From: Patellaria atrata CBS 101060
Taxonomy: Eukaryota > Ascomycota > Dothideomycetes > Patellariales > Patellariaceae
DNA: 64,000 nucleotides
Assembly: GCA_010093705.1 (NCBI GenBank)
Contig: MU006095.1
Coordinates: 1,157,016-1,221,015, forward strand
Direction: 5' to 3'
The position numbers and the translations under genes are program-made. The notes under the pieces are model-generated. The model was not told the origin of the DNA. It was given only the letters and a program-made list of their open reading frames with translations, and searched no databases. This document shows positions 660-63,662 of the stretch, piece after piece (the first letter of the stretch is position 1; each line of letters opens with the position of its first letter).

Positions 660-3600
660 TCAGAGCTTCCCGTAATGAAGCAACACGACCATTATGACAA
701 TGATTGCGACCAGAAGCACGCAGAACACCGAACCGACGTAAAGTGCGGCCCTCTTTTGCTGATGTCCAACGTGTCTCACATCTCCATTGGTAATGGAGGC
801 CATCACCCAATCTCCGGCTCCAGCATAGAGACCGATCAAGAAGGGTGGGAAGAGGCAACAGGCTGCAAAGAGGATCCAACTCCACTTCCTCTTCTGGGTG
901 CCGATATGAACGTTACTCTCCGTAATGATGGAGCTCGACCGACGTTTGTTATGACCTAGAGTCGGGAGACTCATGCGAACCGGCCTAGTTCCTACAGTTG
1001 GGAAGGGAAAGCTGCCTGAAAGAGGGGTGCGAGTGTCTGTGGACTCGATAAGATCGCAGGGCACAAGGTGCGACAGACGAGTATTGTTGGTTTGACCCGT
1101 ATCGTTGGTATTCGCCGACCTGAGACTGTATGTCGGCGTGCCGAAACGTCCATCAGGAGTTTGTATCGGGCGGAGATTGAGCGGTTTGAGCTCTTTCTGG
1201 TGGAAAACAGAAGCGCGACGTTGAGAGCGGGTTCGTTGCGCGTTTCGAGTCGCGGAGAGAAGTTGCTCCTGCTTGCGGCGGGCTGATTGTGCTTTCTCTA
1301 TGTTTAGGGACGATTTAGAACCAGTAGGGGGAAGCTTCGGTTGGTGCTTGGGAGATGCATCGGACTGGGCCAGTGGCGAGCTCTTGAACGGCTTGCTGCT
1401 AGAAAGGAAGAGAGAAAAGGATTTGGAGCGCGGTGTCCCTGGTGTGCTGCTGAAATCAGCGATACTACTGCCCGTTTCGCGCATGTTGGTGCCATTTGGA
1501 GTACCTGTAACATTTCCTTTTGGGCCAAGAACCGTATACTTCGCGAAAGATTCTTCGCAATTTTCCGGAAGTGGACTTGAAGAGCCTGATGGATCCTTTG
1601 CTAAGGAGTTCATGAGATGCTCATACGAACTCGCCTGTGCTCTAGGATCCCGAGTCTGTTTGCGGGCTGCTCGATGCCTTTCTTCACGCACAACTTCAAC
1701 GTCAAGATCACGCTCCATTTGACGCTCCTCGTCTAGCTCCGCATAATAAATATTATCGCTTGGACCTGAATTCAGCAGTTCCTGTTCCACCTTTGACGTT
1801 ATTTTTGAACGTTCGATACTGCTAAGACGCATAACGGCGCGTTCATGATCCGACAATCCATCAGGACTACGCGTTCGTTGCTCTTCATTGACGAAATCTG
1901 CTAGGTCGTTATATAGACCATGCTCTGCAACTAGAAATGCCCTCTCGCTCGGATCAGAGGTGAGAGTTAAGGCCGGAGGGGAGGATTTGAATGGATGGAC
2001 GTGGTCTGCCGATAGAGGGGTAGGTTGAGATTGAGATGGGCGACGAGCACCAGAAGGAGTTGTCCTCAGTGGAGTCAATACATTCCGAACAGGGAATCCT
2101 ATACCATTTTGGAAGTTGTATGCGGGACCAGGAACTGGTGGGATTCGATAATCACTGAGATCTGGAAGACTAGGTAGACTCTCCGACGTTGTAACGTTTG
2201 CAATACTGTCGTCCATGCTAGGACGAGAGACGGAGGGTCCACTTTGCTCACCAATAGTCTCCCACTCTTGCTCATCGAATTCATCGGGCATATCGGCATA
2301 AGAATCTTGTGTTTCAGAAGAATGACGCTCTTTACCATCGGAGAGGTGTGAATGGCGCCTTTCCCGATTGATGAAGAGGGCTCCAGGACCAGGAGACCGT
2401 TTTCTCCAGATCTCCGGAATTTGATCTAGATCATTGGATTCTTCTATTTCCTGTGCGGTCGCTTTGGACTTTGATTCTTGTCTGAGCTTCATATTCGCCG
2501 CATGTTCACTTGGTGAACTCGCCCTAGAAGACGAGTCGAGGAAATCATGAGTGTTTGTTCGAGGGGCGAGACGAAAATTTTGTCGTTCAACTTCACCGGC
2601 ATCGTTGATCCTATTTTGCTCTGGAGACGCAAAGATGTTCCTACTACTTCTCTTCTCTTCTCTGAATCGATTCAGGTCGTCAATAAATGCTTGCTGATAG
2701 CGTGAGACTGGCTCATTCGGATTTCCTGATCTAACCGCCGGTGGTCGAGAGTATAATCGGCTTCCAGAAGGAGATCGATAGCCAGCCTGTCCTTGGAAAT
2801 CATTTGGAAGCGCTATGGCTGATCCCCTCGCAGAATTCATTGACTCGACTCTAGATGTGTTATCTTTATCGAGTCGTAAAAGATCACGCGTGTCTCCATA
2901 AGACGAGCCGTAAGTAAGTGCGGTCGACTCATCAGGTACATGGCGAGCAAACGCCGGGTGGGGACCACCTAGATTTTCGAGAGAGACCCCAAATGCAAGT
3001 AGCTGCGACGATGCCACTGATCTACGAGTTCCCGCAGGCGAGAATATCTCACTATCGGGAGAGTTATGTGCATGTAAAGTGGTCTGGCTGGGATGCTGTT
3101 GAAGCCCGAAATCGAATTTGCTATAACCTGATGTCGATGGTAATTGAGTTGTTCTCTCAGTCGTGCTGGTTTCCGCTTCCTTTGTCAGGTCGAATAGATC
3201 CGGGTCCGTGTTTCCCTCACCCTGGTATCGATCAATGATGCTGTCCAGGGTGTTATCTTTCGTGTTACTAGGTAGACTGGGTACACGTGGGGGTTGAAAG
3301 CGTGAGAGCTCTTTCTGTATCCGATCACGCGAAGCTCTGTGGGTGTGCGTGCTTGTGGTGTCATCCTCAGCAAAGGGAAAGGGATATGAGCTCATTACTT
3401 CACTGGAGTAGTCCGTTTCTCCGACCTTGACCCCGAAAGGAACACTTCGGCGTTTGGAATTGTAGATACTTGTAGGGTATATTGAAGCTGAGTCAAAATC
3501 CCCCCCATGCGAAGAGGAAGGGTAGATCGAATCCGCGTCGTTGTATCTGTGAGGAAGGACGTTTTCAGACATCGACATCATAGGAACGCGAGGAGCGACT

Positions 3601-4988
3601 TCCGGGTTAAATTCTGGCATTGGAATAACCGGAGCTGAACTGGGCACTTGTCCTAATGGCCAATCTTGATAATCAGATGTCCTTCGTGCGGGTAATGGTA
3701 GAAGCTCATTCCCGGCTTCACCGTTTTCATCATGATTCTCATTCGTGTTCTTCTTCCGAGAGAAGATCTTGGAAACTTTTTGAGTGAAAGTTGCAGGCAA
3801 TGTGGGAGATTTTCTGTCATGAAACAAGGGTTTTGGTCTGATGTCTTCTTCTGTATCCTTGGGGGTTGGAGAAGTTGGATAGAATCGCGCAGTTGGTACA
3901 GGATGCAACGGAAGTTCCGGTGCTAAATTTGAATTGCTACCCGAATGGGGAGGAGTTTGCTTGATATCGCGATAAGCAGACTCAAAGTCCGAAAACTGTT
4001 TCCTTGTAGGTGCCGTTTTCTGGCCGCTCCCACCGTCAGTCGGTAGTAATGACGTCATATCGTCTTGCGTCAGTAATTGCGATGACGATTGTGAATGGAA
4101 ATAGTCTAACAAATCTGCATCGCGATCTGCTGGTGTTTCAATATTCGAAAACAGAAGTGATTGATGAGGGTTCACAACGTCAAAAGATGTACCGCGATAA
4201 TGTAAGATGGTCGGAGTTGCTGGTGGCGTCGCAAGAGATGAGGTTTGTGTAAGCCGTTGCGCTTTATCAGAATTGGTAGGCCACTCGTGTTGAGGTGGTT
4301 GTGGAAAGCGCGAGAGAGAAAAGGTTGAAGTGTCTGTAAACCCACTTGGAGAAAGAGGATTGAAAGTTGACGCTTCAGATCTTAGTGGAGAAGGTTGGGC
4401 AGGTTGTGTGCAGATGTTGTTACCTGGACGCGGTAGCCGTTTGATTGGCTTATGAGCTTTGGCGAATTCACGAAATCGTTTGTCAGAACGATAGAAATTC
4501 TCGGCTTCGTCGGTGGAAGGGTACTCGAACGCGCTGACGACCGATTCACGCGAAACGTTGGACTTGTACGAAGGATGTTGTTGAGAAAAGGCGGGAATAT
4601 TTGGTGATGATTGCGCGTAATGGTTGTTTCTGTATCCAAACTTGTCGACTGGTGGATTGTTCTCTTTGCCGTTCCAGGCGCGTGACGAAGGTTGATCGGT
4701 TGCAAATGAGGGTGGTGGATGAGGGTGTTGAAGTCGCGGGGAAGTGACAAAGGGTACTCGCTCAATTGAATTAAGACTAGTAGCTGCAGCCTTTCTCTTG
4801 ACCCTCTTCAAGCCCTTGACGCTGATGGCCGGTGGACTTGGAGTTGCCTGTTGTTTGCGATATTCGTGGAGAGTCAAGTTGTGGATAGGCGTCCGCGTTC
4901 TTGAAGCCGTCGAGCTAAGCGAGGCGTGAGGTGAATGCACTGGGGTAATCGGCTGCGCGACGCGTTGATACGGGTATTCGTAAGTCAT
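660..4988 (-). CDS. Serine/proline-rich protein with two C-terminal membrane segments
   Basis: One uninterrupted 1442-codon frame with no intron, unusual in this window. Almost the whole protein is low-complexity and predicted disordered: Ser, Pro, Thr, Asn and charged stretches, with many SP/TP sites that would suit phosphorylation. Only the last 75 residues look folded. Two hydrophobic segments lie at about 1370-1390 (beginning WILFAACCLF) and 1413-1438 (beginning ALYVGSVFCVLL), joined by a short polar loop and followed by a short tail HYGKL. This suggests a long cytosolic domain anchored in a membrane. Proteins of this build occur across filamentous ascomycetes, often labelled serine-rich, without a known function. 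I do not recognise a catalytic domain and assign none. The start chosen is the first ATG of the frame. Confidence 0.85.
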   Translation of the reverse strand: MTYEYPYQRVAQPITPVHSPHASLSSTASRTRTPIHNLTLHEYRKQQATPSPPAISVKGLKRVKRKAAATSLNSIERVPFVTSPRLQHPHPPPSFATDQPSSRAWNGKENNPPVDKFGYRNNHYAQSSPNIPAFSQQHPSYKSNVSRESVVSAFEYPSTDEAENFYRSDKRFREFAKAHKPIKRLPRPGNNICTQPAQPSPLRSEASTFNPLSPSGFTDTSTFSLSRFPQPPQHEWPTNSDKAQRLTQTSSLATPPATPTILHYRGTSFDVVNPHQSLLFSNIETPADRDADLLDYFHSQSSSQLLTQDDMTSLLPTDGGSGQKTAPTRKQFSDFESAYRDIKQTPPHSGSNSNLAPELPLHPVPTARFYPTSPTPKDTEEDIRPKPLFHDRKSPTLPATFTQKVSKIFSRKKNTNENHDENGEAGNELLPLPARRTSDYQDWPLGQVPSSAPVIPMPEFNPEVAPRVPMMSMSENVLPHRYNDADSIYPSSSHGGDFDSASIYPTSIYNSKRRSVPFGVKVGETDYSSEVMSSYPFPFAEDDTTSTHTHRASRDRIQKELSRFQPPRVPSLPSNTKDNTLDSIIDRYQGEGNTDPDLFDLTKEAETSTTERTTQLPSTSGYSKFDFGLQQHPSQTTLHAHNSPDSEIFSPAGTRRSVASSQLLAFGVSLENLGGPHPAFARHVPDESTALTYGSSYGDTRDLLRLDKDNTSRVESMNSARGSAIALPNDFQGQAGYRSPSGSRLYSRPPAVRSGNPNEPVSRYQQAFIDDLNRFREEKRSSRNIFASPEQNRINDAGEVERQNFRLAPRTNTHDFLDSSSRASSPSEHAANMKLRQESKSKATAQEIEESNDLDQIPEIWRKRSPGPGALFINRERRHSHLSDGKERHSSETQDSYADMPDEFDEQEWETIGEQSGPSVSRPSMDDSIANVTTSESLPSLPDLSDYRIPPVPGPAYNFQNGIGFPVRNVLTPLRTTPSGARRPSQSQPTPLSADHVHPFKSSPPALTLTSDPSERAFLVAEHGLYNDLADFVNEEQRTRSPDGLSDHERAVMRLSSIERSKITSKVEQELLNSGPSDNIYYAELDEERQMERDLDVEVVREERHRAARKQTRDPRAQASSYEHLMNSLAKDPSGSSSPLPENCEESFAKYTVLGPKGNVTGTPNGTNMRETGSSIADFSSTPGTPRSKSFSLFLSSSKPFKSSPLAQSDASPKHQPKLPPTGSKSSLNIEKAQSARRKQEQLLSATRNAQRTRSQRRASVFHQKELKPLNLRPIQTPDGRFGTPTYSLRSANTNDTGQTNNTRLSHLVPCDLIESTDTRTPLSGSFPFPTVGTRPVRMSLPTLGHNKRRSSSIITESNVHIGTQKRKWSWILFAACCLFPPFLIGLYAGAGDWVMASITNGDVRHVGHQQKRAALYVGSVFCVLLVAIIVIMVVLLHYGKL

Positions 4989-7172
4989 TGTAACTTCCTG
5001 TCCTGGCTATCCGGCTCTTATGTGAAAACAATGGACAATCCTCACGCTGTCCCGGCAACCATAGACAACTTATCCTCAACCGACACCTTTAGATCTGAAC
5101 TTTGCAGGCCAATATATCTCCTTTCTCTTCATGAACTTTTGTTTACCAATACCGTTGGTGGCCCCTCGTAGCATCCATCTTAGGTTCCCTTACGGTTCAT
5201 CCGAAGAACTTTGCAGCTATACCTCGTATACTTCTCCAGGGCGATCGAGTCAATGGTAACGCGTGCTTATACAGGAGGTCTTCATTCGATGGGTAGTCTC
5301 GTCTTTGAGCTCGCACTGGAGTTTGGGTATCCAGAATGTTTCACGCCAGCTGAAAAAAATCCCGACCTCTTCCCTATGCTTTTCAATATCCCACCTAGGA
5401 CCTTAACAGTATGGATATGAATGACACTGGAGAAACACTTCTATCTTTACGTAAAAGGAATCCTAGGAGAGCTCTCAAGTTGGTCAAAACGAAAGGGTAT
5501 GACAATTGATATGGGGTTTTGGGTCAGTTCTCGGACGACTCGACCAGCATACAGGGAACAAAGTGAGAAGTATTATCAAGAACCGAAATTACGATTAAAA
5601 GAAGAACGGAGATACATCCAGCTGTCCACAGGATGGGAAAGAGAAAAGAACAGAAAGGGTAATCACTCTTGCCGGTTTGCTGAAAGGGAAGCAGCAACAG
5701 TGTGCTATGCTCCTGCCCTGGAACTACCAGCGGGGGATAGCAAAATAAAGTATCAAGGCCTCTTCCAAGCTTCTCACCAATCCCTCCTCCATCAGCACGA
5801 ACCTGGCCTACCAGTCTACACCATCTCCACCGCTCAAGTACCATCTCCCCATCTATTCTCCCTGATTTCTCAATGTGTGGACGACGAGGTGTCGTCGGCA
5901 ACGACCCCTAGCAGATCGCCACCCTTGCCTTGGTCCCGCACGCACCAATCACAACTCCAAAGCGCACAATAGCCACCCTCGCACCCACCAATGGCGACCC
6001 TTCAGCCGCGAAACCTCGAAAGCAGACCGGAAGAGAGCAGCGAAGAACTCACCCAGTCGCTGTCCTGCAACGTGCTCCTGGAGGCTAATGCGTATCATCG
6101 AAGCTCACACATGCTCCCACCCTATCGTAATCGATAATGTCGCGCCAACCAATGGGATCTACTCGCAAGGACCTTACGATAGGGATACGAGATGACGCCG
6201 GATATGAAGGTCTGAAAAATGACCTTCTTGGGCCCGTTTCCGCGGTCTAATCCATATTTTGCCTCGCACACCAGAGATTTCAGAAAACAAACATTTTCTC
6301 GTGGCTTGGGATTACGCAGGCGCACTGAGGAGAGCTAAGGTACGGTACCTTAGAATGGGAGCTGGAAGGGAGAGAGCTATTCGTCGTGGCTCCGTAGCAG
6401 AGCAGACGGGATCCACACCTGCGTCTCCCACTCTGCCCCTCCTCGGTTGGCGCGTTCACCTCAAGCAGTAACAAACATCAACACCCGCGACCTCTCCACG
6501 CTTCTTTGACATCAACGAGCATCGCGGGCGTCTCGCCTTATGGATCAAACATATTCCCATCTGCAAGAAGACGTCAACATGCAAGATATCACCTCAGTCA
6601 CTTTCTTCAAGCACAACGTTTCTACATTATCTGCAAGACCCGTTCAGAGACCGCGCGCTTAGGATAACGGTCCAGAAAACTGCTTGTACGCCATGTAGAG
6701 TGACGACATCTGCTGAGATTCTAAGCGCGTCGATATCAGAAATTAGTTCTGCGTATCACCAGATACGGGATCTTTTCTAGAGTTGAGATTTGGCCTCGAG
6801 CGGACTATCACGTTTATCATTGCTCTCTATACCGAATAACCGCTGGAAGACGAATAATTGCCCACTATCAACTCCCTGCCTTACGTGTGTCATTTGTACA
6901 TTATGAGCCTTTCGTATATTTCGAGTCCTTCGTACATTTCGAGTTTTTCATACATTTCGAGTCTTCGTACATTTTTGAATTTTTCATACATAAAAGAGTC
7001 ATAACCCGAAGGAAGAACATCCGGTAGACGTCAATTGGTACGACAACGAATGGATACAGTGATTTTCCAAATTGAAAATTTGTACCGTTTCAACAACCTG
7101 GATAAGATATAATTCGTGTTTTACCATATGAATAATTTCCTCCATCCTCCCTTTCAACTTCAATTCAAGTCA
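4989..7172. other. 2.2-kb intergenic region: promoter of the serine-rich gene and 3' flank of urease
   Basis: The left part should hold the promoter and 5' leader of the minus-strand serine-rich gene, and the right end holds the urease 3' flank. Open frames on the plus strand, such as 5421-5972, have no recognisable domain, no homologous character and composition typical of chance frames. A short minisatellite lies at 6911-7000 and is listed separately. Confidence 0.55.
6911..7000. repeat. Minisatellite, about five 17-19 bp units
   Basis: Five imperfect copies of a unit like TTCGTACATTTCGAGTC follow each other at about 6911, 6929, 6947, 6964 and 6983. Alternate copies carry TTCGTA and TTCATA starts, hinting at a doubled higher-order unit. 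It lies about 170 bp past the urease stop codon. Confidence 0.75.
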
Positions 7173-10100
7173 TCAATAAACAAAGTAAGTCTGTGTGAGT
7201 GGCAGCGTCTCTGATGGTTCTGCTTCGCACTTCATTCCGTCCGCTTCAACATACTATACAACATTATCAGCGCCTAATTTCACGAGTTTGAGGTTTGGTC
7301 ACTACTCACGTATGTCTCCGGATCGATCTTCATCTTTGGCATCGTGTCGTTATACTTCATATCCTTCTTTCCAATCTTCCTACAATTCTTGACTGCCTCG
7401 ATCCGTTTGCGCAACCCGTATTTCTTAACTGCCCCGTTATCGAGCGATGCCTGACTCACCCAGGTGATGCTTGTTGCTGGAACCAAGGGCTTGTTTCCTT
7501 GTTAGTCAAGTTCCTCTCGCTGGATGGAGAGATGGATGGCTTACTGCAAACATTGGACGCATTATCACAGGTTCGACTGTCGGGATACTACGTTTCATTA
7601 GTTTCCCACCCCTTATTAGTCTTGTCTCCTCACTTACGAAGCATTCGGATCACCCTATTCCACTGTTAGTTTTCATACACCCAATTCACACACTTAGAAC
7701 TCACCATCTGCGCATAAGAAATCATCCCACTTTTAACCACCAAACTCGGTTTTGTCCCAAAATTACTCGGCGTCCAGAGTACCAAATCCGCCACCTTCCC
7801 GATCTCCACGCTCCCAATGAGATGCCCCATCCCCTGCGCCACCGCCGGGTTAATCGTATACTTACTCACATACCTCTTGACTCTAAAATTATCCGCGTTG
7901 GATCCCTCATCCTCGCTCAAACGCCCCCTCTGCACCTTATTCTTGTGCGCCGTATTCCACGTCCTCAGTATGACCTCTCCGCACCGTCCCATCGCCTGAC
8001 TATCGCTGCTCATCATGCTGATGGCACCTAAGTCATGTAACACGTCTTCGGCGGCGATGGTCTCGGCCCTAATCCGCGATTCGGCGAACGCCACGTCCTC
8101 TGGGATCGACCGCGAGAGGTGGTGGCACACCATCAGCATGTCGAGGTGCTCGTCGAGTGTGTTCCGCGTGTACGGCCGCGTCGGGTTGGTGCTGGACGGC
8201 AGCACATTAGCGTGCTCGACCACGGTCATGATGTCCGGTGCGTGGCCGCCGCCAGCGCCTTCGGAGTGGTACGTGTGGATTGCGCGGCCCTTGAAAGCGG
8301 CGATGGTGCGTTCAACAAAGCCGGATTCGTTCAGCGTGTCGGTATGGATGAGGCACTGGACGTCCATATCGTCGCAGACGCTGGGGCGAGTTAGACTTTT
8401 CGCGTTATGGGGATGAGAAGGGAGTGGATGGTACTGTACCTTAGACATGCGTCTATAGCCGCGGGAGTGGTGCCCCAGTCTTCGTGCAGCTTAAGACCTA
8501 CCGCTCCGGCTTCTATTTGTTCTTCTAGCGGCCTCTTCTCATTGTCATTGCCTTTGCCGGTTATGCCGAAGTTCAGGGGGAGGTTGTCGAGCGCTTGGAG
8601 CATTTGACGTATGTGGTTTGTCCCCGGTGTGCACGTCGTTGCGTTTGTTCCCGTACTATATGATCGGTAAGTTACCTCTTGTCTTCTATTGTCTGGAGAG
8701 GGCTTACCTGGGCCCTGTCCCGCCTCCAAGCATGGTAGTCACTCCGCTCGAAATTGCCTCGTAAGCCTGCTGTGGACAGATAAAATGGATATGCGAATCG
8801 AAGCCTCCCGCCGTGATGATCTTCCCCTCGCCCGCGATCACATCCGTACAACTTCCTACCACCAACTTCGGGTCAACGCCATTCATCACGTCCGGATTTC
8901 CTGCTTTGCCGATTCCGACGATGATGCTGTCCTTGATGCCGATGTCGGCTTTGTAAATACCGGTGTAGTCGACGACGAGTGCGTTGGTGATGACAGTGTC
9001 GAGGGTTTCGGAGTCAGGTCGACCACCCGCTTGTCCCATGCCTTCCCGCAGCGTTTTGCCACCGCCGAAGGAGCATTCGTCGCCGTAGGAGGTGTAGTCT
9101 TTCTCGACTTTGATCCAGAGGTCTGTGGCGCCTAGACGGATCAGGTCACCGGTGGTCGGGCCGAACATAGTACAGTAAGCTTCCCTGTCCATGGTTGCGA
9201 AGTCGATGTGCGCGGAGTCGGCATGGGGTTCTGGCACGTGCAGGAATCCTCCCTCTTGGAGTCTATCGATGATGTTTGCGGCGATCGAGACATCGTGGAT
9301 AGATCCGGTCGCTAGGCCGTTGCCTCCCTTGATGACCTGATTTCCGGCGATCTGAACGAGCGTTACGGTCTTCGCGTCGCCTGGTTCAAAGCGAACAGAT
9401 GTACCTGCAGGGATGTCTAGACGGAAGCCATGCGCGCGTACGCGGTCGAATTCGAGCTGTGGGTTCGTCTCGGTGAAGTGGTAGTGCGAACCAACCTGTA
9501 TAGGGCGATCCCCTTTACTAACGACCCTCAAGCAGATGCGCTTCCGTCCTTCGTTCAGCTGGATCCTACCCTCTTTCACCGCCACGACTATCGCGCCCGG
9601 CTGCTTCTCTGCTTCGTACATCGACGCGTCCGGCAACGGGAACTTGTCTTGCGAGGGGACCGGGAGGAAGGAGCCGTAAAGTGCTTTTTCGAGATCGCCG
9701 TCGTCGGACGCGATCGGGTGGTGCACGGTTACGAGATAGGTGCCGCTGGGGAAGGTCCCTTCGATCATGAGTTCGGAGAGCGTGGTCGGCACGGAGGGGA
9801 GGACGTGCCGTCGGCCGAGCATTTCCGTCCCGATTACCATGAGGTCGGCCACCGTGTGGTTGCCGTCGCGGACGAGCTATAGGGGTGAGTAAGATGGATA
9901 TGTATCTACTGCGTTGGGGCTCTAGGGGCGCGGGGAGCGGTAAGCAGAAGAAGTACCTCTTGTAGGTTATTCGCGATCAATGCCTGGATATCTGTATCAG
10001 TATGAAGGTATCAAGAGAGGGGGAGGGATAAGGGAAAGGGGGGAATACTGTAGCTTCCGCATGGTTCAACTTCACGCCCCGAGCCAGCCTCCGCTGGGCC

Positions 10101-15711: not shown

Positions 15712-18526
15712 ATGGCTTCCTCGCGTATTTTCGTGAAAGGTCTACCGCCGACGTTTTCTCAAGATGAATTCAACAAGCATTTCTCCAGGCAATATCCAAT
15801 TACGGATGCTAAATTCTTCCCACATCGGAGGATTGGCTATGTGGGCTACAAAAACCACGAGGACGCCGCAAAAGCGGTAAAATACTTCAACAAATCATAC
15901 ATTCGTATGTCTAGAATATCTGTTGAAATTGCCAGACCAGTATGTGATATACTAGTTCCTGCAAACTGTTCGAAGACTGCATGTTTACTCAGCAAATCTG
16001 TAGATCGATAATACCGTGCCTATCCCCAAGGGGGAATCTTCTCATAACGTCAATTCAAAGCAATCGCCGCACCAAAATGAAGACCAGCCCCTTGATAATC
16101 CCCTGAAACGTAAAAGGACGATCCGAGAAGGACCTGGTACAGATCCAAAGTTGACGGAATATCTAGAGGTTATGCAACCGCACTCTAAGAGAAGTATCTG
16201 GGAGAACCACAACAGTAATGCGCCTGTGACTTCAGAACCAGCACATGATGTAGAAGAGCAAACCATCGTCGAAGACGGTGATAGCGATTCTGAGTACGAG
16301 GTCGTACCAAAGAAGTCGAAAAACGCTTCAACTTCCATCTCAAATACAACTTCCGTAGGACAGGCGATCAGTTCCACTAACCAAGATCAGGAGAATGACC
16401 AAGCGAATCCGCCAGCTATACCTGACGAGGAAGTACCCACAGTCGTTCCGAGAGATACCTCACAGTCTGATGCAGACTGGTTGCGCTCGAAAACCAGTCG
16501 TCTACTAGAGTTAGATGATGGTTATAGCGGCGCTGAAGGAACCCGAGTGTCTATGTCACAGGATAAGGATACCGGTCCAGCTGAAGAGATGCGCAATATC
16601 GCGGTTGCTCTTCCCAATCAAGATACTCTAGAAGAAACAGGCCCAGCTACTGCCATCTCGACTGATCAAGTGAAAACTGAATCTGACACGAACAAGGATA
16701 CAGGAAGGTTATTTCTGCGCAATCTACCCTATACTGTTACGGAAGATGACCTTCGAGAGTATTTTAATGCGTTCGGTTCTTTAGATGAGGTGAGCATCTT
16801 CTCGTTTGTGCTCATTTGAAAGTCTTTTATGATGAATACCTGATAGGGACATCTGATGCAATGTAATTGATGTAACTCAGGAAGAGTATTTTAGTAGATG
16901 CTTCTCAATTTCTGAATTCGCCTTATTTGCCACGTTACAGAATATCAATGTCTTGGAGACTTTGCTAACTCTCTTAGGTGCACATTCCAATTGACTCTCG
17001 AACCGGCGCCGGAAAAGGCTTCGCATATGTACAGTTTTTGGAACCGTCTGAAGCCATTCGATCGAAGGAAACATTAGATGGCACGATTTTTCAGGGTCGT
17101 TTGTTGCATATCATCCCAGCGAATGTAAAACGTGAAAGCCGCCTTGATGAGTATGCAATATCTCAGTTACCCCTTAAGAAACAGAAGCAGATACAAAAGA
17201 GAGCTGAAGCAGCATCTTCTACTTTCAACTGGAATGCTTTGTATATGAATGTAAGTATTAACCTGCTCTTTCGAGAGACTAATCAACTGATTCTTCTAGA
17301 CCGATGCTGTCATGGCGTCCGTTGCCGATCGCTTAGGGGTGAATAAAGGCGAGTTGCTCGACCCAACCTCTTCGGATGCTGCAGTCAAACAAGCTCACGC
17401 AGAGACGCACGTTATTCAAGAGACGAAATCATATTTCGTGCAAAACGGTGTTGATCTAGACTCATTCAAGAGAAAAGCAAGAGGTGATACGGCCATTCTT
17501 GTGAAGAACTTTCCTTATGAGACCAAGGTGGAAGAGCTTAGGAAGCTATTCGAGGAGCATGGCAAAGTACTAAGAGTACTCATGCCCCCAAGCGGTACCA
17601 TCGCCATCGTGGAGTATGCACAAGCACCAGAAGCACGTGCAGCTTTCAAAGCTCTAGCATATAGAAAGATCAAAGACTCCGTTCTTTTCTTAGAGAAAGC
17701 TCCAAAAGATGTGTTCGATGGAAAACTAGGTAATATCAAGAATGGTCCTCGTGCGTCTTCGCCAACGAGTGTAGCGAAGCTCTCAACAACCGACTTGCTT
17801 GGTAAAGAGAGTACCATCGATACTTTCGATACGGCCACGTTGTTTGTTCGAAATCTTAACTTCACTACGACATCTGAGCGCCTTACTGAAACGTTTAAAC
17901 CTCTGGACGGGTTCATGTCAGCCGTGGTGAAAACAAAGCCAGATCCTAAGAATCTAGGCAAAACACTTAGTATGGGCTTTGGCTTTCTCGAGTTCCGCAC
18001 CAAAAGTCAAGCTCAAGCGGCGCAGGTTATAATGGATGGCTACGATCTGGAGGGTCATAAACTTGTTATCAAAGCGTCCCATAAAGGATTAGATGCCGCA
18101 CAGGAACAAATTCGAAAGGATCAGGCTAAGAAAGCCGCTGCGGTGAAAACAAAAATAATTATCAAAAACTTACCTTTCCAAGCAAGTAAAAAGGATGTGC
18201 GAGCTCTATTTGGGGCTTATGGACAGCTCCGCTCTGTCCGTGTCCCGAAGAAATTCGATAGCTCTACCCGTGGCTTTGCGTTTGCCGAGTTTGCTACGCC
18301 GCGAGAAGCTCAAAATGCAATAGATGCGCTCGGAAATACTCATTTTTATGGCAGGAAACTTGTCCTCGACTTTGCCGAAGAAGGGGCGGCTGACGCTGAG
18401 GAAGAGCTTGAGAAGATGCAGAAAAAGGTCGGCTCCCAACTCAACAGAGTTGCTTTGCAACAACTCACTGGTGTTGGCCGAAAGAAGTTTAATGTCTCAG
18501 GTAATGAAGACGAGCAAGATGTTTAA
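15712..18526 (+). CDS. mrd1: Mrd1, multiple RNA-binding domain protein of the small-subunit processome
   Basis: Acts in the nucleolus in early cleavage of pre-rRNA for the 40S subunit. Four exons, 15712-15939, 16004-16789, 16978-17250 and 17300-18526, give 837 aa. Five RRMs can be read: RRM1 at the N-terminus (RIFVKGLPPTF), RRM2 (RLFLRNLPYTV with GKGFAYVQF), RRM3 (AILVKNFPYET with TIAIVEY), RRM4 (TLFVRNLNFTT with GFGFLEF) and RRM5 (KIIIKNLPFQA with RGFAFAEF). Five is the fungal number; animal RBM19 has six. An acidic, disordered linker of about 200 residues lies between RRM1 and RRM2. Domain count, order and length all match the family. Confidence 0.96.
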
Positions 18527-28937: not shown

Positions 28938-30975
28938 TCAAACTAGGACAAATGCTTTCAATTCCCTATCTACCATGTTATTCAGATCCTCAACCTCCTT
29001 TTGCAATAAGTCATCTATTTCCCTAACCCAGATTTCCCCGTATGCTCTTTTCAGTGACTCCATTGCTTCCCCATTCATGAAGCCATGAACGAAGCATCTT
29101 CCTATAAATTGATATCGCACTCGATTCGGTTCAACGCTCGACGAGTCGCACCTTCGGAGGACAAAGGGGGTCGAACTTCCCAGAGCAATGCAGATGATGT
29201 CACTTTCCTGGGCCATACTCGGACCTTTCGCGAAATATCCTTCAGGTGTGACAGAGAACCTCCAGCCTGGCAAGCGACCATTCAACACCGACCGACGTCT
29301 TCAATATTTCTTCTGTCAGTGCCTCAGACCTCGATGTTTCCGAATAAGCTCCTTTTGAGTGAATTAGCCAATCTTCGGTAGACCCACCAGTGGCCAGTAA
29401 GGTTTTCATGAAAGCAACTAGTATAGGTTCACTGGTTGGCTCGTATGTTTCTTTTCTGGGTAGAAGAGAGCCCCATAACTCAGCAGCGTCCTCTGGATCA
29501 ATTTCGAATCTGAAATCCTTTGGGTTAAGTCGTAGGTTCGATCCGGACTCTCCCACAGAATCTAACAATATTCCCTTAATTGTCAGTTCACCCGGGAGTT
29601 CCTCTGGGCTGCAGTTTGATGCAACTGAACTTAATGCGGAGCAAGTCGTAACAGATTGGCCATCTGCATTTCAGCAACTGCGTAACTTTTCCCATGGCCT
29701 ATATGGATTAGCAAGATCTATCGCAGCAATAGTCAGCATTGAGACGCGCAGAGGTGATTTGCGATTAGCTGGAACATTGTCTATAATGTCAACGCTGTCA
29801 AGGTATTCGTTAAAGTCGGGAACCCAGCTTGGAATACCATTAGTATGTTGGCGTTTTTATATTGTGGATCTGCTTTAGATAATCGAGACAGCGGATCTTT
29901 GGAGCGCGATGTGCGATAACAGATTTCAAGATGCTCCCGTAGAGGGTTTGAAGCGAAAAGTTATAGTCCACAACAATGGATGGGCATACCTGCGAGATAT
30001 TTAACAGCGAATAAATCTTGTCCTAAGGTAGTGCAGCTCGGCGACGTTGGAATTGCCATAGTAATTGATTCATCCGATATGGATCTTCTTTCTTCCGCTG
30101 CTTAAGAATTTCTGCAATGATCCTTACCCTGATTCATATTGGAAATTTCGGTAATGATCCCCGCTGGTATATCTTCGCCGGTCATTCCACCTGCTTCAGA
30201 CTGCTAGAAATCCCATATTTTGGAGAAAAGGTTTGGGAGAGAGCGTCTTTGTGAGCTATAAGGACTCTCAAAAGGGATATTTATGCGGTCATGAAAAAAC
30301 CATACTGTCAGAAAGCGAAGCATAAGGTATCTCCACCCCCTGGTATAAAACACAAGCTTGCTATCCAGAAAATACCTCCTGCACTACCCAAACCCTCGTC
30401 CACCAAGTCTGTGCAAAGACACCTTCCCAGTATGCCTTTGGGGGTTGCACCGTCACGTTGCCGAGTGGAAACATCCATAAGCCAAACCCATACCCATTCA
30501 GCACCAGAATAAACCCGGTGCATAATCTTCACCTGCTCGTTCCTTTCCTCTATATCTTCTTGATTGATACATATAGCATCTGCCCATATCCTGAACCTAT
30601 CGGTTCGTTTATGGGCGCGAAGATAGCGCATGGCATCTGCCAGATTTTTAGTCACCTCAAGCTTGTTTCTACCACTGTACAGGTCATCTTCTCTAGGACG
30701 GTTACCGTTAGTGACTACCATGTCTTTGTTCGAAGGATCTCCCCAAATGTAAGACAAAGCATGGGATGTTGGAGCATCCTCAAGAGAAACCGTCTCTAGG
30801 TTATAGAGTAGCGGATCCGAATCGTATTCACTTGCCAGAAGTGTGATTAAACGTGTTTGCCTAGAAGGATCTGGTAGGGCGGAGTAAGCGTACTTGGGAA
30901 GGGTGTTAGGCAGGCCATCTTCAGTAGGTTCAAAAATCCGCTCGCCATCTCTTAGGTGACCAGCTCGGACCGAGA
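28938..30975 (-). CDS. HET-domain protein gene, structure unresolved, possibly decayed
   Basis: HET domains trigger cell death in fungal self/non-self recognition. The N-terminal half, read from about 30970 to 30360, has the hallmarks: SHALSYIWGDPSNKDMVV, then RIWADAICINQEDIEERNEQ and QVKIMHRVYSGAEWVWVWL. The region upstream, reading NTLPKYAYSALPDPSRQTRLITLL, is in the same frame but lacks a clear ATG, so a 5' exon may be missing from my view. Further down, separate open stretches encode GELTIKGILLDSVGE, a middle region, and a C-terminus with GRCFVHGFMNGEAM, which is typical of HET-protein ends. Between them I could not find a splice path that keeps the frame throughout. Either several introns remain unresolved or the gene is decaying. 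Confidence 0.6.
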
Positions 30976-32623
30976 AAGTGCAGGAATCACTATTATACAG
31001 TCATTAGCGTACTCGATCGACCACGTACCAGTCTCAGATTCAAGTCAGCTACTAAACAAGAGATATCAGCTTCTGGATAAAATGAAACAGCTGTATTTGA
31101 GCTGAACTAAACCTGTAGGGTGCGCTAACATAATAGGATAGAACTATTGGTTACTGTCGAAGGAGTAGTCTTGAGCAGTTGACAGTAATTCTATCTCACC
31201 AATTCAACAGTAGTATGAAGAAACATCAATTATCAGGTTATACCAGAGGACGGTTTATCCGCATCTCAGGAAAAATACTACGGTGATGGTGCTAGCGAAA
31301 GGAACTGAGAGACGGGCTATGCTAGAATTTAGCAACAAGCCTAGAGGAATAAAGATACGAAAAGAATATGTTAGTCATATCCTGACTGGATGTCCTACCC
31401 GAAACATCTCCTATGCCACGAGCTGTGCTAGTATTAAGTATCTAACATATGGTTGTCCTATTAAGAACTGTTATTTCTACTTTACCCGTGAGTCCAAGAG
31501 GCAGCAAGTTCAAGAAATCCAAAAAAAAGAATATAGTAGAACTGAGTATCTACGAAGTGGAAAGATGATGTTGATATTGACTAAGATCTGATATTGCGCC
31601 AGATAGCGCTAACTCAAAAGCTCTAAATTGACCCCTTTGACCCTCCGCAACGAATTCTACTTCATTAAGATCGGAATATCTGTTGATAATTCTAGATATA
31701 GAACTGCGTGATGCAAGCTTTAGGACTCGTGAGAGTTTAACGAAACATAATTTTAGAATACGGATTTAAAGGAAGCTACACCTCTTAAGGCAGGGCGAAC
31801 TCATAAGGTAATATATCACGGTCACTTATAGTGAAGTGACAGTGCAGTCTCAAATTGTCAGGTGAGAGACCGTTAGCCGTATAAGCAAAACGTTGTCGCA
31901 TACATTGGGCTTAATCGACACTCACATTTCAGATGGAGCAAGAAAAGGGGTATGGTGCGAAATGTCGTACAGCCATTCAAACAAAGTAAGAATGCGGACA
32001 TGGACGAGTCAAGGGTCCAGCTAGCGATACCGTACGGCTAGAGGAATCGTTCTTGGAAAGTGCTCCGTCAGCCTGCCACACAGGTCTTTCGCGGAACGGA
32101 GGGGCTGAGGTTCACATGTACTGCGGTTCGGTCAGGGTGAAGAAGTGACGGTGCAGACTTTTGGCTGTGGACTCAACAACTCGGCCGTGCGGGTACACTG
32201 TGAGAACCTATAGTTGGATACAGTGGCATCGGTGTGTCGGTCAGCTTTCGCAAAGTGCGTGAGAAGCGCCGTTAGCGTGAAAAGCCTTACAACCCAGCTA
32301 GCGAAGAAAAGGTATGTCATCTGCTGGTGAGTGGAAGACAGCTAATCCTTTTTTCGATACTGCCGGGTTAATCTGCGGGACAGGTACGCGGGTAAAGTAT
32401 AGATGTGTTCTTATCGTAAGTGCTATACGGCTCAGGCGGCAATGTAGCTGTGAGACCTAATGTTATTCAGTTGCAGACAGTTCCATGTAGGATATAGTGA
32501 AAGATATAGTCTCGAGGGATAGACTCTAAAGATATATCTCACACACTCTGGGAAGGGCTGGTTGTGGACTTTACATATATATACTGATAGACCTCAAGTC
32601 CGTTCATCAACCTCCATCTCTTT
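30976..32623. other. 1.65-kb gene-free region with faint internal repeats
   Basis: No convincing coding exon. A segment near 31827-31860 (GGTCACTTATAGTGAAGTGACAG, split over lines) resembles one near 32130-32160 (GGTCAGGGTGAAGAAGTGACGG), and both are followed by GTGCAG. This suggests an old duplication or repeat. A frame at 31283-31591 has no recognisable protein character. Confidence 0.45.
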
Positions 32624-55312: not shown

Positions 55313-57763
55313 TTAGCCCAATGCTATTGCCCGCATGCTCCCCTTCTGCAGTCCACGCTTCGGAACATTGAATGTATCTACATGCTGCTCCTTCTCTTCA
55401 TTCTCGAGTTCGGCGGGGCTACTCTTCGTCGTCCTCACACTCTTATCATCGTCCGGGTTCAGGGACGCATGGATGAGTTCCTTCAGCTTCTCACGGGCCA
55501 TTTCGCGGGACTGCGCAAGGACGTGTTCGCGACGGACGAGCTAGCGTTATAGTCAGCATCAGCACTCACAAGCGCATAACTGACCCGACATATTATTCAG
55601 GAATAAGAAATTATTAACTCACCAGCTCCTTACACTGCAAATCCATCTCGACCTGTCTATTCATCGAATCCCCGAGCATCCTCAACTTCACATTCGCCTT
55701 CAGATACCTCGAGCACGGCACGACCTCCTTAATATACTTGTCCAACTTCTTCTTCACATCCGCCAATGTCTCGTACGATAGCTTCGATGCAAAATCCGGA
55801 AGGTTCACCGTCTCCTTCAGCACCAACCCCTTCGATCGCGACAGGTTAGAGATCCAAACATCAACAATCTTAATGTGGGCGATTTGCTCCGTGACGCCGT
55901 CGCAGGTACGGTGGAAGACGGTGTAGAGGAGGAATATCTCGTCTACGATGAGTTCTTTGGCTTCGATTATCACGTGGTCGCCAACGTCGTAGGGTTGCTT
56001 GGAGAAGACGAAGGAGCAGGATTGAACGAATTCCGTGACTGTGTCCGCGAGGGCGAAGGAGAGACCCGTTATCGTGGTCCAGATAGGGGTAAGGTAGTTT
56101 CCGAGGTTATTTGTGAAGAAAGCGGCTATGTGTTGTTAGCTACTATGTTATACTCTTCTAACCTACAACCTTTCTGTTCAATGATGATGTGGCTATAAAA
56201 TACTACAGGGATGAAGTGGTAATCATAGACAATCCCCAACCGAAATGGGCAGATGTATGATCCGACAAAGTAGGTAATCACAAACTTACCATATATGATG
56301 GCCATGATCACAAGCATAAGACCAGATACAACAATATTGACACTCTTAGCCGTCTTCTTGATCCCATCCAAGCTTTTGTTAATATCTCTTAGAGACATAC
56401 GAATCTCCAAATCGACATCAACCCACTCTTGCAGGCTCGCTTCCTGGTTTCCATCTTTATCCAAAATCTCAATGATTTCCTTCGCCATAAATGGCCGGTT
56501 GCCCAGATACTCAAATGTGTTCATCTTATCTAAAGGTGGCGTATCAAGCATCTTTTGGATAGATTCTTTCGTGAAAATCGTCTGTGATAACTCAATAGTC
56601 TCGAGTTTTAACTTTGCTTGGAACCAAGCCGTGAAGCTTGCCTCAAGTTGCTTTCTGAGAGCGCGTAAGAATGTTACACCATCAGTGTCAAAATCCTCGT
56701 CCTTGCCTTTTCCGTTCCAGTACCGGTCGGCGAGGTTGTCGAAGTCATGAGGACTTGGTGGCTTGGAACGAAGGAGAATATTTGCTTTCCTGAGTTTCTG
56801 GTACTTCTCACCGAAGTAATCCGTGAGTTTCGCCCAAGTCGATCTGCTCGTATTTGCCCGATCCTCCACGAGGAGGAGATGAGCTTGAAAATGCCGCAAT
56901 ACTTTTTTCAACCTGGACCTCTTCAGTCTCGTCTGCGACCTTGTGATGATTAGTTGCATGAGGAGGTCTTTGGCAAGGAAGACAGCACTCGCAGGCAGTG
57001 TAGCCAGTAGGACTGTTCTAAAAATCTCAATCCAATGCACACCGCAGCTGTCGCTCTCATTGTAACACATAATGTCGACCGTACAATATGCGATGATCGC
57101 GAGGAAGAAGGCGTTTATGGAGGTTTGGCTCTCTAGCAAGAAGCTTTTGTACGAGTTCAAGTGGGCTTTTTCGCACACTTGGTACCATATCTTTCCAAGG
57201 GCCCAGGCAATGAAGTACATGAGCCACGCAGCCGTCCACAATACTTCAAGCCAGATCAGAAACCCGGAGACTCTAATACCATCCATATTTCTATCGGAGT
57301 AGGCGGTTGCCGTAACTACCAGCGGGGGAACAATCAAAATTGCTCCCATGAGCCACCATGTGGATGCTCGAGTTCGTTTGACCACCTGACTAAACCTTTG
57401 GGGTTCTTTTTGCTTCACCTCTGCGACAGTGGCCTGAACAGGTTGTTCCTCTTCTGCTGCTGCATTTTCTGGAGTCGATTTAGTGGTCCGCTTAGACTGT
57501 GCCTCTAGATGATTGGAGATTTCAAATACTCCGGGTTCCTCGTCCAGTTGAAATCTTGTAGAGCCAGCTTTCCCAGTATCAACACTTTTGCGTACAATTA
57601 TACCGGTGTCGGTTTGAATCTCTGAAGACTCGGTGCTTCCGCGTACGTCGATGCTCTTGTTCGTCTTACTCGTGAATTCAACGTTGTTCCGGACATTGGT
57701 ACGGCCATCATATCCCGGTGGTTGCAAACGAATACTTCTACGAGCACTCTTCCCGATGTCCAT
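55313..57763 (-). CDS. Mechanosensitive ion channel (MscS family) with EF-hand
   Basis: Three exons, 57763-56290, 56125-55623 and 55540-55313, give 734 aa. A disordered N-terminus of about 130 residues precedes four hydrophobic segments (WWLMGAILIVPPLVV, WLEVLWTAAWLMYFIAW, AFFLAIIAYCTVDIM, TVLLATLPASAVFLA). An EF-hand loop, DKDGNQEASLQEW, follows, then the pore-proximal pair IVVSGLMLVIMAIIYG and NLGNYLTPIWTTITGLSFA. The MscS beta domain begins FSKQPYDVGDHVII. Architecture matches the fungal/plant EF-hand MscS group, such as Msy1 and Msy2 of fission yeast, which release ions from the endoplasmic reticulum on osmotic shock. Location here is inferred. The start at MDIGKSARRS is preferred over an upstream in-frame ATG at 57835. 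Confidence 0.92.
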
Positions 57764-59335: not shown

Positions 59336-61087
59336 TCATCGCTTTTGATCAATCGCAAAAGTTGAGGCGCCCTCTGCGGGAGGAGGAGGCGCGTAATCTC
59401 GTCGCGGCCCATCGATAGGAGGCATATCTGATGCAATAGCATCTTCATAGCTCGGTGGTGCATCATCATAACCAGGGGCTGCTCCACTATGAGGAGCAGA
59501 CCCTTGGTAAGGCTGTGCAATGGAAGGACCAGCTGGAGCCAAATATTGTCCTTGCTGTGGTGAAGGATATTGGTGAGCTCCAGGGGAGTCAATGGGAGAA
59601 TGGGGAAACCCAGCGTGCGAATTTGGTCTCGGCGGTAATACAGGTTCTTGGCTCGCTGCATTCAGCATCCGTTCAAGCAGAGCCGGTGGAGGTGCGATGC
59701 CGGAAAATATCTTGACCGGTAATCTCAAAGGAAGGACGATGAGCTGGTCTTTACCATGTTGGTATGAGCCATAACCAAGCCCTACGCGAACTTCTAATTC
59801 ATAGTATCTGGAGATGTTACAGGTCTGGAATGACGGTGCAATCGTATTTGGCAATGTCTTCCCAGCCCAGTATTCCCTGTTGATGCTAACCTCAGTTCCA
59901 ACTGGATCAGTTGGTGAGCCGAGTGGTATAGCCATATTACTCATACTCAAGACGACCCAACCGTTCGTTTCCGTTCGCACAACATCGTGGGCTACTATTT
60001 TAGTATAACCTATGATCTCTATTTGAACCATCTGCAAGTAGACGTTTTCATCGCGTTCACTAAGTTGCTTCACAAGGATTCTAAGAGGGATTTCTTCATT
60101 GCAAGTAAGGATTGAAGGATTTGGAAGACGAGCATCGACGCTGAAACGAGCAAGAGGCATTTTGGATTCCATAGGAGAAATAGGTGTAGCTGCAGGCGTG
60201 CCTGCAGGTGTAGTAGCAGAGTCTGTAGAAGATTTCCTCGAGAACCATTTTTCCACCTTCTTGCTCGCACTGGGTTCCGAAATGCTAGGTCTGAACTGGT
60301 GTTGTCGTCTCGCGTATGCTTCTCCATCTGCCTTCGGTGGTCGCGGTGGCTCAATAGGGAGGAAATTGAAAGGTGCAAACTAATACCGCGTATCAGCCAG
60401 TGATCGAAACGGACACCTCGTCGAACTTACCGCACGAGGGTTCTCCTTGAGAAGAGACGGTCTGTTCACTGTCACCTTCACATAGTACTTTATCTCAGCT
60501 TCTCCCGGGAAGCCGCTCAAGGATGGGGGTAGTGTTTGTTTGACATGGCGTGTGGGAGTCTTCGCGACCTCGACTTGGAGACCAGCGAAATTGAGATTCG
60601 TGGATAAACTATTTGCGGTATTGCAGGCATTGTTGATAGGTAACTACTCGACATACTGATTAGCTAAATGCTATATAGCATTAAGGATGTAGTGTTCACC
60701 TTGAATTGGAAAGGATACTCATAATTTCCGGCAGTTAATGTATAGCTTGTGCCTAGTGGTGGGGCATTGCCGTTCCCTTGGAAAGGTGGGAATACGCAAT
60801 TCACTTTGTAGAGAAGCTATGTATGCCGCGTTAGTTCTAATCCTGTCTCTCTTTCAAAAGCGTGACCTTTATTAACTTACTTTATGAACCTCAAGAACAG
60901 GTTTGGCTCGGTCATTATAGCCGGGCCGTGAGGGAGCTAGCAGGCGGGTTTTACTCTCACCTTCAAGTTTGACGACTATAGAAGAAATATTGGCATTATT
61001 GGAGACCCTCAGATAGACCCTCCCAGAGATGAAATCGATATTGGTAAAGTGGGAGTGCGGTCGATCGAGGACTATTGTGACGTTCAT
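59336..61087 (-). CDS. Arrestin-domain protein with PPxY motif
   Basis: Four exons, 61087-60881, 60816-60700, 60643-60431 and 60379-59336, give 526 aa. The arrestin-N half begins MNVTIVLDRPHSHFTNIDFISG, broken as V-x-L-D and SGRVYLRV, with SIVVKLEGES, YTLTAGNYEYPFQFKLP and VKVTVNRPSLLK. The arrestin-C half covers VDARLPNPSILTCNEEIPLRI through VGLGYGSYQ. The Pro/Gln/Ser-rich tail ends with DDAPPSYEDA, a PPxY motif for binding WW domains of a Rsp5/HulA-type ubiquitin ligase. Such alpha-arrestins bring the ligase to plasma-membrane transporters for endocytosis. Which cargo it serves cannot be read from sequence. Confidence 0.92.
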
Positions 61088-62125: not shown

Positions 62126-63662
62126 TCATAGCCCTTCCTTTGCTAGCATGTCTATAAACACATCACGTCAGCGAGAACTAATTACAGGGTTACTGATGAG
62201 ATAGCACTTACCAGCAATATCGAGGTAGAAAGCGATAGCGTTGAATCTGTAAATCGTAAGCGAAGTCCGTAAGACATGAAGTTTATGCCCACTTCCGTCC
62301 TTGGCCAGTTATGGAGTAGAAGAACCACTGTGAAACCGGTGAGAATGATGATCTACTTGATTCTAGCAAGATGGAACTCTAACCTTCATACGATTTGACC
62401 AGTTGATCAGATCCAAATGACTGACTCCAACTAGAGTTCCCTTGTACTCCCCCCATTGACTACTAGCAACACTAGGAGATATTAATTCAGTAATGATTCA
62501 TATAAAGATAGGGTATAATATTCACCTGACGAGCCCATCATTCGGAGAACCCTCCATTCGCTTAATGATTGCATGGGACGGACGGAAGATCGAAAAGAGT
62601 GTTGGTTCAAGCGTAGCCCCGTAGGAGTAATACCTGATACCTCAGTGATGGTAGTTCTAAAACAATCATTATAACGGAAATACTTACCGCACTCCTCCCC
62701 GGTCAGGAGTTTTCGGGTTAAAATTTTCTTGCATATATTTCCTCGTCAATTGTGGGAATGCCGCGTGTTCGAAGCCAAACCATTCCATAGCCTTAAATAC
62801 TCTAGGCAGTCGAGTAGCTAGAATAGATAAATCAGAACATTTGCGTGCTAGCTAAAGTTATAATTCAACTCACTTCCAATGAGATCAAATGTGTAATCTG
62901 CAAAAGCCGACCCTGGGAATTATCAGCGTCAATCACTCATAGGAGCTTGGTGTGGTTCACCTCTATGTGGAGTAGCTATAGTGGTCAACGATAGCGCGTT
63001 GACATTGGTTGGTTTGAGTTGACTGAGCATATATCTCGAATCGAGTCCGCTTATTATACATTAGTTTGAGTCCTTCACTGGTATCAATGTGCATACCCCT
63101 ATAGCAGTAAGCATCACATTTTGAAATATTATTCATATACCACATATTACCATGCTATGTCTGTTAGTCGAATTAGCATCATTTCTTTTACTAGTAGAGC
63201 GAAAGAAAACGAACGCTATGATATTGACGCTCTTTCCGGCTGCCTTTTGAGCGATGATTTCAGATAGCTTTTCAGCTCTAGCTTCGATCGATCCGGATGG
63301 AGGAACCGTTGCAATAATCACTTCGATGTCCTTTTCACGCAACGCTTCGGTAATGCCACGCCAGTACTGAACGCCTGGTAAATTTGGAACCAGACGAAGC
63401 TCGTTGAATCCTAATAATCCGTGGGCAAGGATCAAGGGATTCTTGGGCTTTTCTGCACACATTCATGAGCTCGTGACACATTGCCAATGGAAGTTCATTG
63501 ATATTTACCATAGTTCTCGCGGATGATAGCATATTCACCTTCGATAACTCGACCAAGATCACCAAGTTTGGGGTCATTTAACAAGACTCTTGCAGTACTG
63601 AACGCTCGGTGTTGATAGGGACCTCTGCAAACTGCTGCGCAGAGTGAACGTTGTATATACAT
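62126..63662 (-). CDS. Tgl2-like triacylglycerol lipase, 12 exons
   Basis: Alpha/beta-hydrolase. Exons: 63662-63509, 63452-63215, 63160-63151, 63098-63097, 63049-62961, 62912-62874, 62817-62688, 62633-62526, 62471-62384, 62327-62293, 62246-62212 and 62151-62126. They sum to 954 nt, giving 317 aa. The oxyanion loop is LILAHGLLGFNEL. The nucleophile elbow is HSMGG, with Ser133. The acid is probably in GSPNDGLV and the His in GVSHLDLINW. It ends IADMLAKEGL. The start MYIQRSLCAAVCR gives a basic, acid-free N-terminus fit for mitochondrial import, as for yeast Tgl2; an upstream ATG at 63761 would add a hydrophobic segment. Exons of 10 and 2 nt sit next to each other and rebuild the elbow. Confidence 0.9.
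63097..63098 (-). other. 2-nt micro-exon (GG) of the lipase gene
   Basis: The minus strand reads CTGCTATAG, GG, GTATGCACA. The flanking introns are 52 nt (63150-63099) and 47 nt (63096-63050), both GT-AG and of normal size here, the second with a good ACTAAT branch site. Joining the 10-nt exon A CAT AGC ATG, then GG, then C GGA CTC gives HSMGGL. Without these two bases the frame shifts and the motif is lost. Confidence 0.75.

Follow-up and report, generated by a model that had tools for sequence, protein, structure and literature searches.

A probable two-nucleotide exon in the nucleophile elbow of a lipase gene from Patellaria atrata

A lipase gene on the minus strand of the Patellaria atrata CBS 101060 contig MU006095.1 very probably contains an exon of two nucleotides, GG (63098-63097), located between two ordinary introns that are spliced out sequentially. 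Positions are those of the window, i.e., the whole stretch of 64,000 nucleotides that was analyzed. Exactly 101 nt (63150-63050, minus strand) separate the exon encoding HSM, which carries the catalytic serine, from the exon beginning CGGACTC at 63049. A sequence-only reading had proposed that AG, GG, and GTATGC follow each other in this order inside the gap, and this was confirmed: GG is flanked by the AG and the GT of two separate introns (TATAG-GG-GTATGC), which are 52 and 47 nt long. Together with the C of the following exon, GG forms the Gly codon that follows the triplet with the catalytic serine (HSM-G-GLDSR). That codon ends in the C of exon 5 and can only be GGC, which leaves GG as the two missing bases. 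The reading is based on the sequence, i.e., on canonical borders, the reading frame, a single motif-keeping parse, and the codon requirement. The two introns are best explained as short, ordinary U2-type introns and the GG exon as constitutive, with its constitutive inclusion inferred.

Exon structure of the lipase gene

The gene extends from 63662 to 62126 on the minus strand, and its 12 exons add up to 954 nt including the stop codon, encoding 317 residues without internal stops. The spliced frame is open and reads ...VNIIAHSMGGLDSRYML... across the elbow. Exon 1 (63509-63662, 154 nt) encodes the N-terminal part of the lipase with the putative start codon. Because an in-frame ATG is present upstream, within the same stop-to-stop open reading frame, the placement of the start codon is uncertain. 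By eye the N-terminus resembles a presequence. Intron 1 (63453-63508, 56 nt) is followed by exon 2 (63215-63452, 238 nt), which is alignable to bacterial homologues and ends in VNIIA with the GC of the Ala codon, and by intron 2 (63161-63214, 54 nt). Exon 3, ACATAGCATG (63160-63151), is 10 nt long and read as A CAT AGC ATG, the last base of the Ala codon and then HSM with the catalytic Ser133. Intron 3 (63150-63099, 52 nt) has the ends GTAATA and TATAG and a branch-like site, CTTAC, located 9 nt from its end. Exon 4 is the GG dinucleotide and provides bases 1-2 of the Gly135 codon. Intron 4 (63096-63050, 47 nt) has the ends GTATGC and ATAAG and a branch-like site, CTAAT, located 11 nt from its end. 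Exon 5 (62961-63049, 89 nt) begins C GGA CTC and encodes GLDSRYMLSQL. It is followed by exon 6 (62874-62912, 39 nt), exon 7 (62688-62817, 130 nt), exon 8 (62526-62633, 108 nt), which contains NDGLVS with the catalytic Asp253, and exon 9 (62384-62471, 88 nt), which contains SHLDLIN with the catalytic His275. The last exons are short: exon 10 (62293-62327) and exon 11 (62212-62246) are 35 nt each, and exon 12 (62126-62151) is 26 nt including the stop codon. Exon 10 is placed by frame alone in a region that is not conserved in the homologues. All exons lie on the minus strand.

For intron 8 two acceptors are located nine bases apart (62463-62480, minus strand), CTCCTAG and TGTTGCTAG, and both keep the frame. 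Use of the later acceptor gives a model of 945 nt with an insertion in 37 of 39 bacterial homologues, while the earlier acceptor, giving 954 nt, resulted in an insertion in none of the 39. The exon total of 954 nt over 12 exons given in the sequence-only reading is therefore right. Since the alignment flags this nine-base error, it is able to detect wrong junctions. Alternative use of the two acceptors, resembling that of NAGNAG sites, is possible. The junctions of introns 1, 6, 9, 10, and 11 were not supported by the homologues, with deletions there in 12 to 39 of the 39, and the exons at these junctions were placed by frame and splice signals.

By its sequence the predicted protein is a bacterial-type lipase with an intact Ser-Asp-His triad, S133-D253-H275. 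The protein searches were run with the 945-nt version (314 residues) as query, which lacks three residues of exon 9, well away from the elbow. A search of solved structures gave 21 distinct sequences with E of 0.01 or less, the top ones being bacterial triacylglycerol lipases (1HQD, E 1.9e-16). In all five alignments shown, the HS[QH]GG elbow of the structures was aligned to HSMGG, and the catalytic Asp and His lay in a second stretch with a weak match (4.7 bits). Two Pfam families, DUF676 and Abhydrolase_1, exceeded their cut-offs. Of the 39 bacterial homologues, 36 share Asp253 and 35 share His275. A significant match, an elbow of the GxSxG type, and the catalytic Asp and His thus all place the protein among the bacterial-type alpha/beta lipases, the family of the Burkholderia and Pseudomonas lipases and of Tgl2-like proteins, and it shares the (G/A)xSxG elbow, the triad, and a similar triad spacing with the bacterial lipases 1EX9 and 1HQD. 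The yeast mitochondrial lipase Tgl2 is reported to have the triad S144-D259-H281 (PMC11889585); compared by reported positions only, the spacing is similar to that found here, and the elbow is again (G/A)xSxG. The gene is best explained as an intact, intron-dense fungal lipase gene.

Splice parses and homologues at the elbow

No single canonical intron was found that leads in frame from the HSM exon to exon 5. When the donor following ATG was fixed and intron ends were tried up to 8 bases from the acceptor, in-frame products were obtained with non-canonical ends only. The sequence-only reading had no frame-keeping single intron after the HSM exon, which holds for canonical introns to exon 5. 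When any single GT/GC-AG or AT-AC intron from the HSM exon onward was allowed, there was one in-frame solution, an AT-AC intron by which HSM was deleted. Removal of the whole 101 nt, that is skipping of GG, results in a frameshift (HSMRTRFE...), and translation then continues for 28 other residues past HSM before it reaches a stop. When the outer sites were kept fixed, with introns of at least 25 nt and a middle exon of any size, the only in-frame, stop-free solution with two introns was the GG exon.

Splice sites were also left free between exon 2 and SRYMLSQL, allowing one to three introns of at least 38 nt each with GT/GC-AG borders. This enumeration gave 25 in-frame, stop-free parses, of which 1, 15, and 9 had one, two, and three introns, respectively. 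The motif [GA]xSxG was kept by one of the 25, with the lengths 54-10-52-2-47, i.e., three introns around exons of 10 and 2 nt. The lone single-intron parse from exon 2 was in frame and lost the motif. A second of the 25 parses also uses the GG exon, with intron 2 retained. Intron 2 (63161-63214, minus strand) is stop-free and its 54 nt are a multiple of three, so that its retention adds 18 residues just before HSM.

The glycine itself was assessed in homologues. A scan of prokaryotes with one genome per species (84,980 species) yielded 101 relatives, 80 of them retained, and a viral scan with the lipase gave two distant loci. The halves of the protein up to HSM and from GLDSR were searched separately against the 146 stop-to-stop frames of these 82 loci, and both halves were matched in 56 frames. 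Thirty-nine of these (L001-L039) were counted, namely those where both halves align to the junction with at most one residue extrapolated; for L037 and L038 the downstream half matches at E above 1 only. In all 39 exactly one residue was found between the Met and the residue aligned to the G of GLD, and it was always Gly. The frames of these 39 bacterial homologues are uninterrupted through the elbow. The other 17 frames were left out, each having one half at E 0.42 or more; two of them gave one residue and 15 gave values from -204 to 7, in 13 cases through extrapolation over 12 to 20 residues from a short hit in the wrong place. AHSMGG can be read in 13 of these 15 uncounted frames.

In the full alignment of the 39 there was no insertion or deletion within 4 residues of junctions 2, 3, and 4. 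Gly135 was Gly in 39 of 39, and Gly136 was Gly in 37 and Ala in two. Conservation to the left of the glycine is partly selected, since VNIIAHSM, present in all 39, was one of six search patterns; the elbow Gly was absent from every search pattern. The sequence-only reading had taken GG as the exon that gives HSMGGLDSR, and both lines of evidence bear this out: it is the only canonical parse restoring the motif, and the added residue is the one present in all 39 bacterial homologues.

The two introns compared with chance and with neighboring introns

The frequency of such an arrangement by chance was estimated by keeping the ends of the gap and dinucleotide-shuffling the rest, giving 20,000 sequences. 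AGGGGT was found in 327 of these, and in 70 of them both parts were at least 40 nt long. Ten of the 70 added a GTRNG donor, and in five of these ten the upstream part also held a CTNAY site. All four features are present in the real gap; the shuffle counts were unchanged under an added branch-distance limit, which the real gap would narrowly fail. Among overlapping GT..AG stretches of 95-107 nt on both strands of the window, 43 of 6,038 contained a central AGGGGT, 16 of these with the GTRNG donor. AGGGGT is mildly over-represented in the window, with 35 occurrences against 23.85 expected, a number that 3 of 100 shuffles reached.

In the lipase gene, the nine remaining introns are 46-60 nt long (mean 53.8, standard deviation 4.3). 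The lengths of 52 and 47 nt agree with these, while 101 nt is 11 standard deviations away. For six introns assigned manually in other genes of the window, the lengths were 48, 49, 51, 53, 56, and 64 nt. Other properties speak against the reading. In a small matrix built from the other nine introns, all of which ranked at 27 or better themselves, the donors GTAATA and GTATGC took ranks 109 and 82 among 256, and intron 4 ends in AAG, compared to CAG or TAG in those nine. Draft models in the window also give longer introns, one of 164 nt at 56126-56289 and one of 188 nt with a snoRNA. The loose version of the draft gene finder over-predicted (404 introns), and the strict one under-predicted, its nine introns (71-231 nt) including at least one that takes in coding sequence.

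Similarity between introns was compared for all 55 pairs of the 11 introns, using the later-acceptor form of intron 8 (63 nt). The best pair was 7-11 (p = 0.04), and pair 3-8 had p = 0.10. There was no sign of duplication between introns 3 and 4, this pair lying outside the ten best of 55, and no comparison among introns 2, 3, and 4 gave p below 0.1.

Some other features of the window were recorded. A gene that is arrestin-like by eye (60380-60880, minus strand) has introns of 64, 56, and 51 nt after the addition of a missed exon, matching the short lipase introns; its largest exon gave no match in Pfam. A C/D box snoRNA of the family Afu_335 (16825-16917, plus strand, 82.7 bits) lies within the 188-nt draft intron of an RRM-repeat gene that resembles Mrd1. 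The Rfam match 5_ureB_sRNA (8758-9051, plus strand, 74.2 bits) is antisense to a urease coding exon and therefore probably reflects merely the conserved urease coding sequence. A stop-free frame of 1448 codons (663-5006, minus strand) had no Pfam match at 0.001. Part of a gene with a HET (heterokaryon incompatibility) domain is located at 30311-31000 on the minus strand (E 8.2e-23); HET domains mark filamentous ascomycetes, and together with the Afu_335 snoRNA this one makes such a fungus the probable host.

Several other explanations of the 101-nt gap were weighed. It could be a single intron, with the frame broken by an assembly error of two bases or by a true two-base deletion at the edge of an exon. 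The HSM exon does end in a G next to the G of the intron, forming a short run, and introns above 100 nt occur among the draft models of the window. We nevertheless consider this improbable, as the rest of the 954-nt frame is unbroken, with the triad conserved, and such an intron would exceed the longest of the gene by 41 nt. It would also leave the central AGGGGT, found with two parts of sufficient length in 70 of 20,000 shuffles, and the two normal-sized introns with branch-like sites to chance. Even less probable is a single non-canonical intron. Three such joins are in frame: an end in TA two bases earlier (HSM-S-GLDSR), an end in GC one base later (HSM-GLDSR), and a 99-nt intron with the ends TA...AA. 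The last gives HSMGGLDSR, because every GT..AG intron starts and ends with G and can be trimmed by one base inside both ends. These borders are, however, unlike those of known U2 or U12 introns, the TA...AA ends are not credible for a spliceosome, and neither a Ser at the elbow codon nor loss of the residue was observed in any of the 39 homologues.

The sequence-only reading had also offered recursive splicing or a nested intron as an alternative. In a stwintron, the splice signal of an external intron is split by an internal one; such introns are known in several fungi, and one is described from Aspergillus nidulans, in a gene for a putative lipase (PMC5639578). Here the donor and the acceptor are uninterrupted, and removal of all 101 nt, in whatever order, leads to the HSMRTRFE frameshift and its stop. 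The nested intron thus fails, GTATGC being intact, and we regard a stwintron or any other nested intron as highly unlikely. The idea of recursive splicing fared better in part: sequential removal is likely, whereas a zero-nucleotide recursive site, with AG and GT abutting, was rejected as GG is kept between them. We give equally little credence to a decaying gene copy from which no correct transcript is made. The weak donors of introns 3 and 4 would be in line with decay, and a working paralogue could be located elsewhere in the genome, but the frame is complete over 12 exons, the triad is conserved, and the protein still has 27-37% identity in the best segment to 36 of the bacterial loci (L001-L036). 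We therefore retain the GG exon between two ordinary introns as the best reading.

Splicing of the GG exon and comparison with known cases

Sequential, recursive-like removal of introns 3 and 4 is the likely handling of the GG exon; it belongs to this reading and is no rival to it. With two bases between the intron 3 acceptor and the intron 4 donor, full splicing complexes could not bind at both sites simultaneously. Given this steric overlap, each intron would be recognized by intron definition and the two removed one by one. Two bases would also be too few for the exon-definition machinery. Fungi whose introns are short pair their splice sites across the intron. GGG stands directly ahead of GTATGC whether or not intron 3 is still present, so that either order of removal would be possible. 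Skipping of GG would cause the frameshift and early stop described above. Three introns are located within 12 coding bases at 63050-63214 (minus strand), the neighboring exons of 10 and 2 nt lying in the catalytic elbow. It is conceivable, though doubtful, that ordered splicing at the elbow, with inclusion or skipping of GG or in-frame retention of intron 2, acts as an on/off switch for the enzyme.

The earlier statement that exons of 1-2 nt are known and very rare agrees with precedents described for plants, Fusarium, and gene models of Phlebia radiata. In the plant genes APC11 and VPS55, exons of 1 nt were confirmed experimentally (PMC4674806, PMC8831610). Like the GG exon, these are shorter than 3 nt and required for the frame; they differ in being from plants and in their size. 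Intron definition with successive removal was proposed for Arabidopsis APC11 by similar reasoning (PMC4674806), and neighboring microexons of 5 and 12 nt have been reported from plants (PMC8831610). The closest case is the Fusarium cytochrome P450 gene CYP621A, with a 1-nt exon that is supported by reads and called the first for a fungal gene by its authors (PMC12940212). Also there, an ultra-short G exon between AG and GT completes the Gly codon of a conserved motif, argued from a gap exceeding a normal intron more than twofold in length and from a homologue that lacks introns. The exon of CYP621A is a single nucleotide (AGGGT), documented by reads and in 20 orthologous genes according to the abstract (24 in the text) (PMC12940212). 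Unlike it, the exon of the P. atrata lipase is 2 nt (AGGGGT), adjoins an exon of 10 nt, and is predicted from its sequence.

Phlebia radiata is a basidiomycete, a member of another fungal group. Its gene models, BRAKER1 predictions with RNA-seq input, are reported to include exons "as short as two nucleotides" (PMC6540522), and thus 2-nt exons have been predicted in a fungus as here. Fungal stwintrons, as they are described, resemble the present arrangement in having two introns that are removed consecutively, and differ in that a splice signal is interrupted and zero bases are kept between the introns.

The GG exon has AG and GT flanks, no single canonical intron can replace it, its bases are required by the homologues, and it lies between introns of normal size with branch-like sites. 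As such it would join the known ultra-short exons of less than 3 nt, and we do not claim that 2-nt exons are new to the literature. Exons of this size are rare and readily overlooked by gene-finding software, and annotation tools with minimum exon sizes may label the genes that carry them as broken. Since GG is located in a catalytic motif, the missing bases are fixed by chemistry. Well-argued exons shorter than 3 nt indicate that the pairing of splice sites by the spliceosome can do without exon sequence.
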